Notes under the pieces: generated by a model
The model's input: the letters and a program-made list of their open reading frames with translations, nothing else
Database searches by the model: none
What the model was told of the DNA's origin: nothing
Position numbers and translations under genes: made by a program
Assembly (NCBI RefSeq): GCF_007827695.1
Contig: NZ_VITA01000010.1
Location: 124,001-188,000, forward strand
Reading direction: 5' to 3'
DNA length: 64,000 nucleotides
From: Sinorhizobium medicae
Lineage (GTDB): Bacteria; Pseudomonadota; Alphaproteobacteria; Rhizobiales; Rhizobiaceae
In this document: piece after piece, positions 44,094 to 51,763 of the stretch
How positions within the stretch are numbered: the stretch's first letter is position 1
How the letters are laid out: the number at the start of each line of letters is the position of its first letter

Positions 44094-44852
44094 ATGGGAG
44101 CTCTCACAGCCTTGGCGCGAAACTGCATCGTAACGGCTCTATTGGGTTGCGCGCTTTTCGCACCTTCGATCGCGGCCGAGGAGGCCGCCGATGTCGCCAC
44201 CGGAACGCGGCTTGCCGAACTATTGCGTGCTGCCCGGAACGTGCTTTCGAATTACCAGTCGCTCATCAACGATCCGGCAATCGGAGACAAGAAGCTTAAC
44301 GGCGAGCGGTTCACAACCGAAGCGATTGCCCTTTACGGCGAGCGTACCGGCCATCCGCTGATCTCGGATGATCTCGGCGACCGCGACCGCAAGCTCCTGC
44401 AGGCACAGGTGGAGGCGATGCGCGAGGTCGTGGATGAAGAGCAGGACGACATCAACCGGCCCGGCATAGGCTTCAAGGGTTTCGTTCCTGCTATTTTTGC
44501 CCGCCTGATGAACGAGAAATTCGCCGTGAAGGCCGGCAATGAGGCGCTGGTCCGCGTTACGGCGCCGGAAGTCCTCGTGCGCAACCGCAAGTCGCTGCCC
44601 GATGCCTGGGAAGCGAGGGTCATCAACGAGATATTTTCGGATCCGAAGCGGCCGAAGGGCGAACTCTACACAGAAGTGACGCAGGTGAACGGCCGGCCCG
44701 CTTTCCGGATGCTGCTGCCGGAATATTACACGGAATCATGCCTCTCCTGTCATGGGTCGCCAAAAGGTGAAATCGACGTCACCGGCTATCCGAAAGAAGG
44801 CGGCAAGGCGGGCGACCTGGGCGGTGCGATCAGCATCGTCTTGTTCAAGTGA
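44094..44852 (+). CDS. Exported c-type heme sensor protein (DUF3365/Tll0287-like)
   Basis: A 252-residue protein with a signal peptide ([19 protein letters not shown]) and a DUF3365-like domain ([37 protein letters not shown]). The heme-attachment motif is C216-L-S-C219-H220. Such domains bind one c-type heme and are thought to sense redox state or gases. The stop overlaps the start of the hybrid kinase gene (GTGA), so the heme protein is probably its periplasmic sensory partner. ATG 44094 has GGGGGG upstream. Confidence 0.82.
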
Positions 44853-47602
44853 GCGCGTTAGAACACGGGCTGCGATCGACAGAGGCCGGTCGGCCCACGA
44901 AAAGGCTCGACAGCCGGATCATCGATCTGCCGATCTCTGCCCGCGTGGCCGCGCTTACGGCGGCCGGACTGGTCAGCCTTGTTCTTTCATCTCTTTTTCT
45001 CACTCAGGCACTTTATCGCAGTGCCGAGCGCATGGCCGAAACGAGAGAGCTCTTCGACAGGGCGGCGTCGGCAGCCTCGGCCCATGTGGCGTTCGGCGAT
45101 CTCAGATATTGGCTGACCGACCTATCCGTCAGCTTGCTGATGAATTCCCAGCGCAACGCCGACGAGGCACGCGCGCGACTACAGGTGCAGTTGGAGCGAC
45201 TTGCAAAGCATGCGCCCGTGGAGGTCCGGCAAATCGGCGCCGAGGTCGACGCTTATGTGGAAACGGCGCTGCAGGCAGCCGACAGCTACACGCAGGATAA
45301 CCGCATCGTCGGCAATGCCCTGCTGGCAAAGGCGCGCACCCACAGCGGCAAGGTGGACACAGACCTCAACAGGCTGGTCGAACAGGTAAAGGCAGAGGCG
45401 GAGGCCGCCCGCAACGAGGTTGTCGTTCGAACCGAGAAGACGGCCACGACCGCGGCCATCCTGGTGGGCGGCGTGGTGCTGATCGGCTCGCTGCTAACGC
45501 TCCTCGTCCTGCGTTCGATCGTGGGCCCTCTGCGGCGTCTCAATCGCGTGATCGGCGATCTGACGCAAGGGCGCTACGACGTCGAGATACCTCAGGAGGG
45601 CGGTGACGAATTTGGGGCGATGGCAAGGACGTTATCGCTTTTCCAGGAAAGCGCGATCGAAAAGAAGAAGCTCGAAGACGAGGCGGAGCGGCAACGGCGG
45701 ACGATCGCGGCCGCGCTCGAGGTGATTTCGGATGGCTTCGTCCTTTATGATTCCGATGACAGGATCCTGGTCGCCAACAGCAAATATTGCGAAATTTTCC
45801 CGAGCCACAAGCCCAATGCGCTTCGCGGCAGGAGCTTCCGCGAAATCGTGGAGCAGAACCTGGAGACGGGGCAGGTGGACCTCGAAGGAAAGTCGCCGCA
45901 GGAGTGGGTCGACGAGCGCGTAAGGCTTCATAGGGATCCCGCGGGCCTCGTCGACGAGAAGCGGTTTGGCGAAAGATGGGTTCGTATCAGCAAACGCAAA
46001 ATTCCGGATGGTGGAACGGTGGCCGTCTACACCGACATCACGGAACTCAAGCAGCGGCAGGTCGAACTGGAACGCGCAAAGAGCCATGCGGAATCGGCCA
46101 ACGAGGCCAAGAGCCAGTTTCTCGCCTCCATGAGCCACGAGTTGCGCACGCCTCTCAACGCGATCATCGGCTACAGCGAAATGCTGATCGAGGAGGCACG
46201 CGATCACAAGGAAGAGGAGCTCGTGCCGGACCTCGACAAAATAGCCTCAGCGGGACGGCACCTCCTCTCGCTTATCAACGACATCCTCGATCTGTCGAAG
46301 ATCGAGGCGAACAAGATGGAGGTTTTCCTCGAGACCTTCAGCCTTGCCGAGTTGCTCCGTGATGTTGCCGCAACAGTCGCGCCGCTGATGGCCAGGAATG
46401 GAAACGCGTTCACGCAGGATTTTGAGGACGATCTCGGCGAGATGCATTCCGATCAGACCAAATTGCGCCAGAACCTCTTCAACCTGCTCAGCAATGCGGC
46501 CAAGTTCACGAAAGGCGGGCGGGTGACTCTGAGGGTACGGCGGGAACAAAGAGCCGATCGCGACTGGCTCGTGTTCCAAGTCTCCGATACCGGCATAGGC
46601 ATGACGCCGGAGCAGCAGGACAGGCTCTTCAACGCCTTCACCCAGGCCGATGCCTCGACCACCCGAAACTATGGCGGCACCGGGCTGGGTCTGAGCATCA
46701 CGCGCAGCTTCTGTCGCTTGATAGGCGGTGTTGTCACGGTGGAGAGCGAAGCGGGAAAAGGCTCGGTATTCACGATGGAAGTGCCCGCGCAGTGCGAGAG
46801 CGAGGTGGATAGCCCACCACCCGAGCAGACAGCGCAGGTTCGGTCCGGACGCACCGCACTCATCATCGACGACGAACCGGCTGCGCGCAATCTCATCGCA
46901 AAGGCGCTGGCAGAAGCAGGCCTTGCCTCGATCGAGGCATCAAACGGACAGGAAGGTCTGGCCGCCGCCCGAGAGCATCGACCCGACGCCATCATTCTCG
47001 ACATCATCATGCCGCATCAGGACGGATGGTCGGTCCTGCGCGCGTTGAAGAACGATCCCGAATTGTGCACGATCCCGGTGATCCTGGCGACGATCCTGGC
47101 GGATCGCGAGCTGGGGCTTTCGCTCGGCGCGGTCGAATATCTGACGAAGCCCATCGATACTGACAAACTTGTCCGCACGATCGAGACATTCGGGGGCGGC
47201 AAACACGACGTTCTCGTCATCGACGACGACCAGGGCTCACGCGAGTTCCTTCGGCGCATTCTGGTCAAGAGGAAATGGACCGTACACGAGGCGGGCGACG
47301 GCGTCCGCGGGCTGGAGATGATGAAGCGGCTTGTGCCGCGTCTCGTCCTGCTGGACCTGCTGATGCCGGAAATGGACGGATTCCAAACGCTGAGCGAAAT
47401 GCAGAGTATCCCGGAATTGCAGAACATCCCCGTCGTCGTGGTCACTTCGAAAGACCTTTCCGCAAACGAGCTGAAATGGTTGCGCGATCGGGCGGTCGCC
47501 GTCGTGAACAAGGGCGCAAACAGCCGGGCTCAGCTGGTGGAGGCACTCGAACGCCAGATCGGATCGGTCGCTTCGATCGGTAAAGAACTGGCCGAAGGCT
47601 AA
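44849..47602 (+). CDS. Hybrid sensor histidine kinase with HAMP, PAS and two receiver domains
   Basis: A 917-residue inner-membrane kinase. Two transmembrane helices (about 32-52 and 204-227) flank a helical periplasmic domain. HAMP (about 228-280), a coiled linker and a PAS domain (about 290-400) follow. The DHp domain carries H430 ([19 protein letters not shown]), then HATPase ([28 protein letters not shown]) and two receivers with D718 (IILDIIMP) and D836 (VLLDLLMP). The first receiver has a TKP lysine; the second has NKG instead. It starts at GTG 44849, overlapping the heme protein. It probably relays a periplasmic redox signal to the receivers encoded downstream. Confidence 0.92.
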
Positions 47603-47627
47603 GGACAGGGAAGGAGGAGAGCCGCAA

Positions 47628-47993
47628 ATGACGAGAATCCTTCTGGTGGAGGACAATGAAATGAATCGCGACATGCTTTCGCGGCGGTTGTCGCGCCGCG
47701 GCTTCCAGGTGCTGATCGCAGAGAACGGACAAGCCGGCGTCGAGCTTGCCGCATCGGAAAAGCCGGACCTGATCCTCATGGATATGAGCCTCCCTGTCAT
47801 GGACGGCTGGGAAGCGACGCGGCGGATCAAGGCCGATCCGCTTACATCCGCAATACCGGTCATAGCGCTGACTGCACATGCCATGGCAAGCGATCGGGAG
47901 ATGGCGCTCAAGGCCGGTTGCGACGACTACGACAGCAAGCCCGTCGACTTGCCCCAGCTTGTCCGCAAGATCGAGCAGTTGCTCGCGACATAG
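47628..47993 (+). CDS. Single-domain response regulator (CheY/DivK-like)
   Basis: A 121-residue receiver with the N-terminal acidic VEDNE, phospho-acceptor D52 (LILMDMSLPVMDGWEA) and lysine in SKPVDLPQL. No output domain. It lies 25 bases after the hybrid kinase and 7 bases before the cyclase gene, so it is well placed as a phosphorelay intermediate. Confidence 0.92.
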   Translation: MTRILLVEDNEMNRDMLSRRLSRRGFQVLIAENGQAGVELAASEKPDLILMDMSLPVMDGWEATRRIKADPLTSAIPVIALTAHAMASDREMALKAGCDDYDSKPVDLPQLVRKIEQLLAT

Positions 47994-48000
47994 GGCGAAC

Positions 48001-49563
48001 ATGACCGCCATCAACGACTTCCAGCGTCAGGCGATCGCCGCTCACGTGGCCCAGCGACTGGCCGGCCCGGCTCGGGCAATACTGAGCTTCCAGGAACTGC
48101 TGATCGAGCAGGCGCGGGATCTCGGCTTGCTCCACACCAAGAGCGACATCGACCGGATCGGCGCCGCAGCAAGGCAACTGAACAATCTGATCGATAGCCT
48201 TCTCGATGGAACTGCCTGCGCTCTGGAGGAAGGAGCAGCGGAGGCGGAGGCAAGGTTCCGTCACGATCTGCGGACGCCGCTCAACGCCATAATCGGCTAT
48301 TCCGAAATGATTCTCGAAGAAGCAAGGGATTCGCAGCAGCATGCGCTGACAGAGGATCTCCAGGTCATACTCTCGGCGGCCGCCGAGCTTCTGAAGCAGG
48401 TCGACGCGATCGCCAGTCTTTCGCGTGGGGAGGTCGCAGAGGTGCTTCAACCGGAGGAGCGGGTCGACATTGACGCGGCCGGGCTCGAACGGCTCCTGTC
48501 GACGGCCGAACAGACGCCATTGCCGGACAGGGTCGGCAGAATTCTCGTCGTCGACGACGTGGCAAGCAATCGTGATCTTCTTTCCCGACGGCTTCGACGG
48601 GAGGGCCATCGGGTGGTCACCGCCGAATCCGGACGATCCGCGCTTGCAAGACTGGCCGAAGACGAGTTCGATCTCATCCTGCTCGACATTCTCATGCCCG
48701 ATATGAACGGCATCCAGATGCTTTCGCGATTGAAGTCAGAGGAGCGATGGCAGCACATCCCGGTGATCATGATATCGGGCCTGAGCGAGGTCACCGCGGT
48801 AGCCCGATGCATCGAGGCCGGCGCCGACGATTATCTGACCAAGCCCTTCAACCCGATACTTCTGCGCGCACGGATCAATTCGACCCTCGAGAAGAAGCGC
48901 TGGCTAGACCGAGAGCACCGCTATCTTCAGCAGATAAAAGCGGAAAAGTCGCGGGCGGATTCGCTCATTCGCGCGATTCTGCCGGACCAGATCGTTTCGC
49001 GGCTGCAGAACGGGGAAGAGATCATCGCCGACCGCTTCGAAGAAGTTTCCATTCTGTTCGCGGATATTGTGGGCTTTTCGCCCATTGCGGCGAGGCTGAC
49101 TCCGTCCGATCTGGTCAGGCGCCTGGATCGTATGTTCAGACAGTTCGATTTGCTGACCGAGCAGCACGGTGTGGAGAAGATCAAGACCATCGGAGACTCC
49201 TATATGGCCGCCTGCGGGATCCCCGAGCCTGCAACGGATCACGCCGACAGGATCGTGGCTCTCGGAAAGTCCATGCTGAGATCGTTGCGCGACATGGAGC
49301 CCGAGAAGGAGCGCTTCCGGATTCGGATCGGGATCCATTCAGGGCCGGTCGTTGCCGGGCTGATCGGACGGCTCCGGTTCGTTTACGACGTTTGGGGTGA
49401 AACGGTGAACATCGCGAGCCGGCTCGAATCCCAGGGTGTGCCCGACGGCATACAGATATCGGACGCGACGCGGCGCGCGCTTCAGGGGCAGTGGACGCTC
49501 GAACGGCGCTCTGCCCAGAACCTGCGAGGCATCGGCGCAGTCGAGACCTTTCTTGTTCGGTGA
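48001..49563 (+). CDS. DHp-receiver-class III adenylate cyclase protein
   Basis: A 520-residue cytoplasmic protein. A kinase-like dimerisation/phosphotransfer segment holds H88 ([18 protein letters not shown]) but no ATPase domain follows. A receiver domain comes next (about 180-295; D229 in LILLDILMP, lysine in LTKPF), then a coiled segment and a class III nucleotide cyclase (about 345-520). The cyclase has metal ligands D355 (ILFADIVGF) and D399 (IGDSY), and K395 and D463 (VYDVWGETVNIASRLES) at the positions that select adenine. It should therefore make cAMP. ATG 48001 begins the conserved product; the longer upstream frame overlaps the receiver gene. The DHp is very like that of the upstream kinase. 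Confidence 0.88.
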   Translation: MTAINDFQRQAIAAHVAQRLAGPARAILSFQELLIEQARDLGLLHTKSDIDRIGAAARQLNNLIDSLLDGTACALEEGAAEAEARFRHDLRTPLNAIIGYSEMILEEARDSQQHALTEDLQVILSAAAELLKQVDAIASLSRGEVAEVLQPEERVDIDAAGLERLLSTAEQTPLPDRVGRILVVDDVASNRDLLSRRLRREGHRVVTAESGRSALARLAEDEFDLILLDILMPDMNGIQMLSRLKSEERWQHIPVIMISGLSEVTAVARCIEAGADDYLTKPFNPILLRARINSTLEKKRWLDREHRYLQQIKAEKSRADSLIRAILPDQIVSRLQNGEEIIADRFEEVSILFADIVGFSPIAARLTPSDLVRRLDRMFRQFDLLTEQHGVEKIKTIGDSYMAACGIPEPATDHADRIVALGKSMLRSLRDMEPEKERFRIRIGIHSGPVVAGLIGRLRFVYDVWGETVNIASRLESQGVPDGIQISDATRRALQGQWTLERRSAQNLRGIGAVETFLVR

Positions 49564-49686: not shown

Positions 49687-50988
49687 ATGGCCCTCGGCGC
49701 ATCCCAACGTTTGAATGACGGCGTTGCGGCCGTGGAAACCATGACGCGTTTCGCGCTCGCAGTGCTGGCGCTTGCCTCCGGCGTCTACACCTATCTCGGC
49801 GTCCGCAGTATCCTTGATGGTTCGCCGACGGCAGTGTTCTTCGCAGCGATCATCTACTCGGCCTCGGTCTCCGTCGGCATCTACGCCTTCTGGTCCTACA
49901 TGGCGCGCTTCTATCCGCATGTGACCACCCATGCCGGCCGGGTCGCCATGCTGGGCGTGATGGCTCTCGGTGCTGCCATGATCATCGCCATGTCCAGCTG
50001 GCTCAACGCAGCGGCGCTGGCGGGGTCGGCCGCACTCGAACAGCACCTCGCGGAGACGGTGGAAGACTATACTGCCGACCTCGACCAGGCGCATCAGAAC
50101 GCACTTGCAGCCCAGAGCCTGCTGCCCGATATCCAACGCGCATCAGAACGCTTTGCCCAGCTTGCCGCCTCGGAGCGGCAATCGGGCGCGCTCACCGGCA
50201 CCACGGGTTCGGGAAGCGTGGTGCAGCTTCTGTCGCAGATGTCGGCCCAGATGAAGGATCTGGAAAACGGCATCAATGCTTCTCGGGAACAGGTCGCGAT
50301 GCTGTTCAATCAGGGACAGAAGCGGCTCGAGACCATGCGGACGCTGGTATCTGCGCCTGGTGCGGTCACGCCGCGTGCCGATCAGTTCTCCTCCGAAGTG
50401 GTGGCGCTTACGGGGGTGATAACATCGCTCGGACAGACTTCGATCGCGCCTTCGATCCGCCGCGCCGCAGACGACCTGTCCCTCGGCTTCATCGCGCCGG
50501 TGGCCGATGGCGGCGATGCCGACCTCGTCACCCGCCAGGACCAGGTGATGGAGACGGTGCGGGCTTCGGTGGCAGCGCAGTCCAAGGTTCTCTCGGATGC
50601 GGCAGACGAAATACTGGGTCGGACGCCGGTGGCGGAGCGACGCTTCGTTCCGCTTTCATCCGCCGAGGCGGTTCTGCGCTACGCGGCCGATTTTATTCCC
50701 GCCTGGGCCGGTGCCATTTCCATCGACCTGCTGCCGGGCGTGTTGGTCTTCATCCTCGCGACCGTGCACGGGGCGATCCGCAGGCAGGAGGAGAAACTGC
50801 CCTTTGCCGAGCGCATCACGGCCGCCGAGCTTCTGCAGGCCCTGGAAGTCCAGCGCGCGGTGATGGCGAATGGGGGCCAGAACGGCGAGGCAGGCGATTT
50901 GGTGGAAATGGAGGGCGATGAGCCGAACAACATCACCAGCCTCGACCCGAGGGTGCGCGTAAAGGACCGGTCGCATGAGGATCGATGA
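49687..50988 (+). CDS. Membrane protein with long coiled/helical periplasmic or cytoplasmic region, unknown function
   Basis: A 433-residue protein with three N-terminal membrane segments (FALAVLALASGVYTYLGVRS, AVFFAAIIYSASVSVGIYAFW, VAMLGVMALGAAMIIAMSSW). A long helical region (about 125-330) rich in Gln, Ala and Asp follows, then a fourth membrane segment (AISIDLLPGVLVFILATVHG) and a short acidic tail. No named family was recognised. It overlaps the next gene, a ClpP-like periplasmic protein, by 14 bases, so the two probably work together. Confidence 0.75.
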   Translation: MALGASQRLNDGVAAVETMTRFALAVLALASGVYTYLGVRSILDGSPTAVFFAAIIYSASVSVGIYAFWSYMARFYPHVTTHAGRVAMLGVMALGAAMIIAMSSWLNAAALAGSAALEQHLAETVEDYTADLDQAHQNALAAQSLLPDIQRASERFAQLAASERQSGALTGTTGSGSVVQLLSQMSAQMKDLENGINASREQVAMLFNQGQKRLETMRTLVSAPGAVTPRADQFSSEVVALTGVITSLGQTSIAPSIRRAADDLSLGFIAPVADGGDADLVTRQDQVMETVRASVAAQSKVLSDAADEILGRTPVAERRFVPLSSAEAVLRYAADFIPAWAGAISIDLLPGVLVFILATVHGAIRRQEEKLPFAERITAAELLQALEVQRAVMANGGQNGEAGDLVEMEGDEPNNITSLDPRVRVKDRSHEDR

Positions 50989-51763
50989 CGCTTTCAGGGC
51001 GCTGATGCGGCTCGACGACGGTGTGCTGATGCGCGGCGCCTTTTTCGTGATGCTCTCGGCTGCCGGGATCTTCCTGCTGATCGACATGCGCGAGATCGCG
51101 GCCATGAATGCAGGGTTGCCGGGTTTTGATCCGATGCTGGAGGATAGTCCGGTTCTGCCTCCGGCGGTGACGGAGGCTGCGCCCAAGGGGCCGCCGGTTC
51201 ATCCCGCAAGCTCCGATGAAGTCCTGCGTCAGCCGATGAGGTTCGAACTAGGGTCCGGCGGTGTCCTGCTTGCCGAGGGTACGATCGATCTCGGAGCCGG
51301 TGAGCGCTTCGCGCAAGAGATCGAAGCGCGCGGGGAGTATGTGAAGACCGTGGCCCTCAACTCGCCCGGTGGATCTGTCGACGATGCGCTCGCCATGTCC
51401 AAACTGATCCGTGAAAAGAAGCTCGATACAAGAATAGCCTCGAGGGCACTCTGTGCCTCGTCCTGTCCGATCGTTTTCGCCGGGGGTGTGGCGCGTGTCG
51501 CGGCCAGCGATGCGCTGATCGGCGTGCATCAGGTCTTCAGCGGCGGCGGCGACGACCGGCCGACGCCGGCGCAAGCCATGTCGTTTGCACAATCCACCAC
51601 CGCCCGTGTTGCTCGCCATCTCGACACGATGGGCATCGGCGCCGGGCTCTGGATCAATGCTCTCGAAACGCCACCCGACCGGCTTTACTATCTGACCGCC
51701 AAGGAGATGGCCGAGTTCCATCTGATCACCGAGCCGGTCGAGACAGCCAAGAAGAAAGAATGA
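50975..51763 (+). CDS. Membrane-anchored periplasmic ClpP/SppA-like protein
   Basis: A 262-residue protein with an N-terminal membrane anchor (GAFFVMLSAAGIFLLIDM) and a ClpP/crotonase-like domain (VKTVALNSPGGSVDDALAMS, SRALCASSCPIVFAGG, LIGVHQVFSGG). The Ser of ASSCPIVFAGG and the His of GVHQ are placed like the catalytic residues of ClpP-type serine proteases. It is probably an envelope protease or a catalytically modified relative. ATG 50975 overlaps the upstream membrane gene. Confidence 0.72.
   Translation: MRIDDAFRALMRLDDGVLMRGAFFVMLSAAGIFLLIDMREIAAMNAGLPGFDPMLEDSPVLPPAVTEAAPKGPPVHPASSDEVLRQPMRFELGSGGVLLAEGTIDLGAGERFAQEIEARGEYVKTVALNSPGGSVDDALAMSKLIREKKLDTRIASRALCASSCPIVFAGGVARVAASDALIGVHQVFSGGGDDRPTPAQAMSFAQSTTARVARHLDTMGIGAGLWINALETPPDRLYYLTAKEMAEFHLITEPVETAKKKE

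Follow-up and report, generated by a model that had tools for sequence, protein, structure and literature searches.

A four-gene unit of Sinorhizobium medicae, found in a window of 64,000 nucleotides (the whole stretch of DNA that was analysed), appears to encode a single relay, in which a periplasmic NO or redox signal would be turned into cAMP by way of a phosphorelay, with a tandem of two DHp-like hairpins as the histidine transferase. We place the probability of this reading, which is drawn from sequences and models, at about 0.5. The unit and its parts are as follows.

44094..44852, + strand: DUF3365/Tll0287-like (sCache_heme) protein, 252 aa (Pfam PF11845, 7.9e-19)
44739..44753, + strand: CLSCH heme c attachment motif, residues 216-220 of the DUF3365 protein, read from the sequence
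44849..47602, + strand: hybrid histidine kinase, 917 aa, with a GTG start (Pfam HAMP, PAS_7, HisKA, HATPase_c and two Response_reg)
45008..45457, + strand: helical sensor domain of the kinase, between its hydrophobic segments, carrying an 11-residue motif
46106..46309, + strand: HisKA (DHp) domain of the kinase, residues 420-487 (Pfam; H430 invariant in the kinase alignment)
47628..47993, + strand: single-domain response regulator, 121 aa (Pfam PF00072, 4.6e-28)
48001..49563, + strand: tandem-DHp/REC/class III adenylyl cyclase, 520 aa (Pfam HisKA, Response_reg and Guanylate_cyc)
48037..48204, + strand: first hairpin of the cyclase protein, a degenerate DHp, residues 13-68, with Gln at the His position and unseen by Pfam HisKA
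48247..48438, + strand: second hairpin, a DHp, residues 83-146, with H88, D89 and T92 (Pfam HisKA)
48541..48876, + strand: receiver domain with D185, D186, D229, S259 and K281 (Pfam; residues present in 61/61 cyclases)
49027..49557, + strand: class III cyclase domain with K395/D463, D355/D399 and N470/R474 (Pfam, 1.6e-53)

The first-pass annotation had listed a CxxCH-bearing periplasmic DUF3365 protein, a hybrid kinase of the HAMP-PAS type with two receivers, and a lone receiver, all of which were borne out by the Pfam matches and, in the case of the DUF3365 protein, by the CLSCH motif on the same strand. Its statement that the genes overlap holds for the first pair (4 nt), but not for the later pairs, which are separated by gaps of 25 and 7 nt, and its DHp-receiver-cyclase, while matched in each of these domains, possesses two DHp-like hairpins and not one. 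The start of the cyclase was taken as the ATG at 48001, which gives the base length of the annotated S. meliloti gene. In the annotation of S. meliloti CP050512 the four genes stand as one DUF3365 protein and three 'response regulators', and the copy of the stretch in S. meliloti 1021, a laboratory strain amenable to genetics, is found in NC_003078 at 363808-369404, where the four genes would by counting be SMb20355-SMb20358. The heme protein is 99-100% identical to copies on 12 S. medicae plasmid records of 1.51 to 1.59 Mb.

Gene order, the conservation of which had been proposed as a check, turned out to be identical in all the Sinorhizobium loci. The DUF3365 protein is encoded in 31 of the 32 other genomes of the genus, the same 31 encode the full-length cyclase, and the order DUF3365-kinase-receiver-cyclase is present in all 31 loci, every one of which was examined; the remaining genome encodes neither the DUF3365 protein nor the cyclase. 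Such conservation across the genus excludes a chance arrangement and supports the view of the four genes as one unit. Outside the genus, DUF3365 matches occur in 10 of the 87 genomes of the same sample, of which three possess the whole four-gene set (in one of these, G111, the cyclase is partly masked); the remaining seven are weak matches, without relatives of the other genes nearby. In a wider genome scan, 233 relatives were found and 80 loci were kept for counts (further loci overlap with this set and were not added). All four genes, in the same order and with the cyclase at full length, are present in 60 of these 80 loci, nearly all from Alphaproteobacteria, including the genera Sinorhizobium, Mesorhizobium, Rhizobium, Phyllobacterium, Stappia, Bauldia, Actibacterium, and Tropicimonas, along with MAGs labelled Kiloniellaceae, Rhodovibrionaceae, and Rhodospirillales, and one labelled Competibacteraceae; in two of the 60 the kinase ORF is short (806 aa in L107, 774 aa in L131). 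The 4-nt overlap between the DUF3365 and kinase genes is seen in 61 of the 80 loci, with starts chosen by script. In evenly drawn samples the presence of this DUF3365 type is patchy, with 8 of 385 genomes positive at the level of the class, 20 of 397 at that of the order and 5 of 398 at that of the phylum (own genome included). The layout is thus widespread, if patchy, and is not a one-off of the S. medicae genome. A search of the literature by locus tag or description, with most subscription papers outside it, returned no account of the operon. As far as the searches show, no description exists of the arrangement, of the tandem hairpin, or of the kinase sensor domain; the parts belong to known families.

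The heme protein matches PF11845 at 68.9 bits, against a cut-off of 24.1, and has a single hydrophobic segment (residues 4-22) in a signal peptide-like N-terminus. In an alignment of 49 DUF3365 sequences (the window and 48 of the 80 kept loci), C216, C219, and H220 are present in 49/49, and the only cysteines of the mature protein are the two of the CxxCH motif, again in 49/49, so that an axial Cys is absent. No His or Met column besides H220 is conserved at 80% or more in this alignment. Invariant in it are Lys 66, Lys 128, Tyr 211, and Tyr 212, which are candidate heme ligands only. The AlphaFold2 (AF2) model of the protein has a pLDDT of 91; with it, Foldseek returned no match at E 0.001 or better, and the best of the weak fold matches are CitA (8biy, probability 0.87, E 0.08) and GSU0935 (3b42, probability 0.89, E 0.15), while no credible solved relative was found in the PDB by sequence. 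CcmE is encoded in the genome, which we count in favour of a relay with a c-heme protein. In one locus outside this alignment (L201, from the same genome as L187) a DUF3365 relative has the first Cys of CxxCH replaced (GRLTCH), and therefore at most one thioether bond can be formed there.

Comparison with the sCache_heme proteins of a recent preprint (PMC12889525, 2026), cited here from the portions available to us, is instructive as to the ligand. The window protein shares with them the PF11845 match, the CxxCH motif, and predicted export. In that work, stand-alone DUF3365 proteins are assigned redox-related roles, and fused ones NO sensing: the signalling-type protein of P. azotoformans, which lacks the axial Cys, binds NO tightly, and a stand-alone protein with the Cys does not, being redox-like (PMC12889525). 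The window protein resembles the P. azotoformans protein in lacking the axial Cys but differs from both classes in being stand-alone and yet without this Cys, and encoded in a kinase operon; the portions available hold no mention of a four-gene operon. Lacking the Cys is not by itself enough for an NO sensor, because the C59A (Cys-to-Ala) mutant of the redox-type protein still lost NO fast (PMC12889525). The absence of an axial Cys from the window protein is thus consistent with NO sensing but is not proof of it, and the ligand may be NO or the signal a redox one.

The kinase possesses two hydropathy segments, at residues 24-42 (1.62, borderline) and 203-221 (2.71), and the HisKA, HATPase_c, and C-terminal receiver families are each present in 46/46 kinases scanned, as is characteristic of hybrid histidine kinases. 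Between the two segments lies the helical sensor domain, for which no Pfam family was found in the window kinase and no credible solved relative in the PDB; weak Pfam hits are scattered among the other members, with no family in common. A profile of this domain matches the kinases of all 80 DUF3365 loci, of which 31 were used in building it, including kinases of the Hpt type and non-hybrid ones, and it matches none of six kinases (two of them near-identical) from tandem-hairpin loci without this DUF3365 type. That one sensor domain accompanies the DUF3365 type in 80/80 loci, although the kinase type and the output vary, argues for the relay. Counting against a tight link, the domain is found in 6 of 179 genomes of the class, with DUF3365 beside it in four, and none within the fetched flank in the other two. 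In those two (L203 and L204) the helical sensor domain is part of what by eye appear to be methyl-accepting receptors, and a small ORF of about 155 aa for an exported product lies beside it. Most simply, the sensor domain would receive its signal from a separate periplasmic partner. Separate sensors encoded beside hybrid kinases are familiar from TorT-TorS and from H-NOX and NosP with their partner kinases, and the periplasmic domain of TorS is likewise helical; in the unit described here, unlike in these systems, a DUF3365 protein with heme c serves as the proposed partner, and no Pfam family matches the sensor domain of the window kinase.

These data bear on another reading, in which the DUF3365 protein would be a redox cytochrome of the periplasm with no link to the kinase, and the kinase would respond to a different signal. 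The redox roles given to stand-alone DUF3365 proteins and the fast loss of NO from C59A (PMC12889525) would agree with it, but it leaves the overlap of the two reading frames in 61/80 loci, and the link to one kinase sensor domain in 80/80, to be accounted for, and we consider it quite improbable.

The cyclase protein is the most unusual part of the unit. A single DHp was rejected in favour of two hairpins, as judged by alignment, AF2 helices, conservation, and a recount on 61 cyclases (the window and 60 kept loci), which replaces a count on 94 with only 76 distinct sequences. Residues 20-67 align with residues 90-137 at a local score of 66, which none of 1000 shuffles reached (maximum 59), and they align still better with the DHp of the kinase (score 102). 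H88, D89, and T92 of the second hairpin are present in 61/61 cyclases, and position 18, the acceptor place of the first hairpin, is occupied by Q in 55, E in 4, D in 1, and R in 1, and by His in 0/61. The two hairpins are conserved to a similar degree (0.73 and 0.74), and the linker between them less so (0.42). Two hits to a first-hairpin profile (iE < 1e-5) were found in 43 of the 60 cyclases, the other 17 pairs resting on alignment. In a FastTree analysis of 147 hairpins, the first hairpins cluster together (support 0.95), as do the second hairpins (0.70), and a further split (0.95) sets the two clusters jointly apart from every kinase DHp. The tree agrees with a single ancient duplication, with the caution that these are short sequences. 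The AF2 model of the cyclase (mean pLDDT 81, pTM 0.51) predicts helices at 3-41, 44-68, 79-110, and 114-140 in the N-terminal part, and we infer that the two hairpins would pack as a helix bundle of one chain. HATPase_c was recognized in 0/50 cyclase members, with the reservation that a badly degenerate domain could escape Pfam. A linker of about 38 residues separates the second hairpin from the receiver. The best other match of this hairpin in its own genome is the DHp of the partner kinase (56.2 bits; the next of 22 candidates scores 25.7), with which it shares most of helix 1.

A tandem of pseudo-DHp and DHp that lacks a kinase domain points to a transferase step of the Spo0B/ChpT/PhyT kind, fused to the output. 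In the Spo0F-Spo0B-Spo0A, CckA-ChpT-CtrA, and SdrG-PhyT-PhyR relays, according to the part of the source consulted, a kinase-derived histidine transferase similarly stands between upstream and output receivers, and in the Spo0 and PhyT relays a single-domain receiver is involved, as in the window operon; Spo0B and ChpT form dimers, and PhyT carries a degenerate ATPase domain (PMC5898713). The window protein differs from all three in possessing two hairpins in one chain, fused to a receiver and a cyclase. A DHp hairpin with an acceptor His is present, as in these transferases, and the degenerate ATPase domain is not recognized, so our best reading is that the tandem works like a transferase of this type, without being filed as a member.

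The distribution of HPt domains offers a further view. Phosphorelays need a histidine transferase between receivers, and Pfam Hpt (PF01627) was found in none of the window proteins, in 0/46 kinases of tandem loci (45 of these loci and the window; the L143 and L144 kinases were scanned too), and in 0/50 cyclases. A search for an HPt hidden in the operon gave nothing, the three Hpt matches of the genome all being located off the contig of the window. Among 74 loci with hybrid kinases that could be judged, 64 possess the tandem only, 6 Hpt only, 0 both, and 4 neither (Fisher p 1.1e-6 with kinship ignored, a value that overstates the exclusion, because the loci are related). The 64 include the 60 full loci, two with a partly masked cyclase (L125, L127), and two in which the tandem is split off (L143, L144); 17 of them were scanned with a two-sequence Hpt profile only, and their kinases were taken as hybrid from full-length similarity. 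Six loci remain outside the 74, one at a contig end (L115) and five with kinases lacking receivers (L112, L113, L122, L150, L153). In the six Hpt loci without a tandem (L147, L149, L152, L156, L157, L160) the Hpt is found at the end of the kinase, recognized by Pfam in five and in L149 by the two-sequence profile only, as a separate ORF; receiver matches lie inside the kinase ORF, and no lone receiver was seen. The kinases of these loci are distant (33-34% identity), which counts against the argument from exclusion. Two of the same loci (L147, 12909-14429, and L149, 11835-13652) encode, downstream of the DUF3365/hybrid-kinase pair, a receiver fused to an EamA-type transporter domain. The loci with neither tandem nor Hpt (L146, L154, L158, L162, and, by the two-sequence profile only, L178-L181, L186, and L187 outside the 74) imply that a transferase is not always needed. 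With these reservations, the tandem hairpin may stand in for an HPt domain.

The tandem is also found apart from its usual neighbours. In L143 and L144, near relatives of each other (879 of 911 kinase residues), it is encoded by an ORF of its own (153 aa in L144), with a REC-SpoIIE gene next in line, and its first hairpin is weak (iE 0.03). Seven genomes in which this DUF3365 type gave no hit at E 1e-25 (G185, G205, G216, G266, G410, G445, G492) encode a full-length tandem, and in loci of this kind the output is a cyclase (L190, L192, L193) or SpoIIE (L191, L195, L196), and the hybrid kinases nearby have GAF (L194), PAS (L192), or sub-threshold dCache (L196) sensor parts. Other outputs and other kinase sensors together make the tandem hairpin a portable unit. 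In L196 and L197, from genomes of 1.2 Mb, the tandem hairpin is part of a REC-SpoIIE gene (SpoIIE recognized by Pfam in L196) whose neighbourhood includes a hybrid kinase, a DUF3047 gene, and pseudopilin-like ORFs. A broader proposal, to which we would give somewhat less than even odds, is that the tandem represents an undescribed phosphotransfer module, an ATPase-free analogue of the Spo0B or ChpT dimer in one chain, which replaces HPt and connects interchangeable outputs (an adenylyl cyclase or a SpoIIE-type phosphatase) to hybrid kinases whose sensors are likewise interchangeable, in the present case a periplasmic c-heme protein paired with a new kinase sensor domain.

Two other readings of the hairpins have to be weighed. 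In one, the kinase would phosphorylate the cyclase receiver and the lone receiver directly, as in plain two-component control, with the tandem as only a platform for dimerisation or docking. The four judged loci in which a receiver-cyclase is encoded with neither tandem nor Hpt are in its favour, as are the likeness of the second hairpin to the DHp of the partner kinase and the fact that class III cyclases act as dimers, but an acceptor His followed by D89 and T92 in 61/61 cyclases is unexpected of a mere scaffold, and the encoding of the module apart from its output in L143 and L144, together with the mutual exclusion of tandem and Hpt, also argues against it; we regard this reading as somewhat unlikely. 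In the other, the hairpin would be phosphorylated in trans by the ATPase domain of the kinase, as in a split kinase, or would act as a receiver phosphatase setting the off-state, and here the sharing of most of helix 1 with the kinase DHp, and the location of D89 and T92 at the places of the E/DxxT/N phosphatase motif, are suggestive. This reading leaves the conserved pseudo-hairpin and the exclusion with Hpt unexplained, and we judge it unlikely.

Under the preferred reading, a phosphorelay with the tandem as transferase, the sequence comparisons above establish which parts are present, that they are conserved and linked, and that the catalytic residues are kept, and the route may be pictured as follows. 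The c-heme protein, with no conserved Cys, Met, or second His at the sixth site, would read NO or the redox state and, as a separate partner, would signal to the helical periplasmic domain of the kinase; the kinase would autophosphorylate and pass phosphate to its own receivers, to the lone receiver, or to both; H88 of the tandem would take the phosphate, the first hairpin completing the helix bundle without itself being phosphorylated; and from H88 the phosphate would move to the fused receiver, switching adenylyl cyclase activity in one direction or the other.

As to the output, the Guanylate_cyc match (181 bits) and the conservation in 61/61 cyclases of D355, K395, D399, D463, N470, and R474, which we take to be the metal, adenine (ATP-type), and transition-state residues, identify a class III adenylyl cyclase with predicted activity; the top fold match is 5o5k, a bacterial adenylyl cyclase, at 40% identity. 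The CyaC-type receiver-cyclases of cyanobacteria likewise have phosphorelay parts joined to a class III cyclase, but CyaC joins a full kinase to the cyclase, whereas here the kinase is separate and the cyclase possesses DHp hairpins only. Upstream (up to 300 nt) of the unit in the window and in 44 relatives, neither the Clr box TGTTN8AACA nor the FixK/FNR box TTGA[T/C]N4[A/G]TCAA was found; one loose TTGN8CAA lies upstream in L145. In the part of the literature consulted, S. meliloti is described as using cAMP via Clr in nodules, and CyaD1, CyaD2, and CyaK, which are class III cyclases from this genus and feed cAMP/Clr, are called receptor-like cyclases, with no kinase relay mentioned, which sets them apart from the cyclase described here (PMC4222275).

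Downstream of the cyclase lies a 433-aa ORF (49687-50988) with only a sub-threshold Pfam hit; among the loci compared, just those nearest to the window have it next to the operon. It is followed by a ClpP-like ORF (50975-51763), the second gene after the cyclase. To judge from gene order, the latter should be SMb20360 of S. meliloti, which, in the portions of the report available, is expressed in nodules (moderately according to the abstract, strongly according to the results) and not in free-living cells, and is not required for symbiosis (PMC3462710).

In 2013, 26 class III cyclases were counted in S. meliloti, their overall function being then unknown, as stated in the part of that source consulted (PMC4222275). 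The relay proposed here would give a concrete, testable account of how a heme signal from the periplasm leads to cAMP in rhizobia. It would also put to the test the rule, as given in the available portions of the preprint, that stand-alone DUF3365 proteins are redox-related and fused ones sense NO (PMC12889525), by presenting a stand-alone group without the axial Cys in a kinase operon. Finally, it suggests a new way to build the transferase step of a phosphorelay, with the natural exchange against HPt as support.
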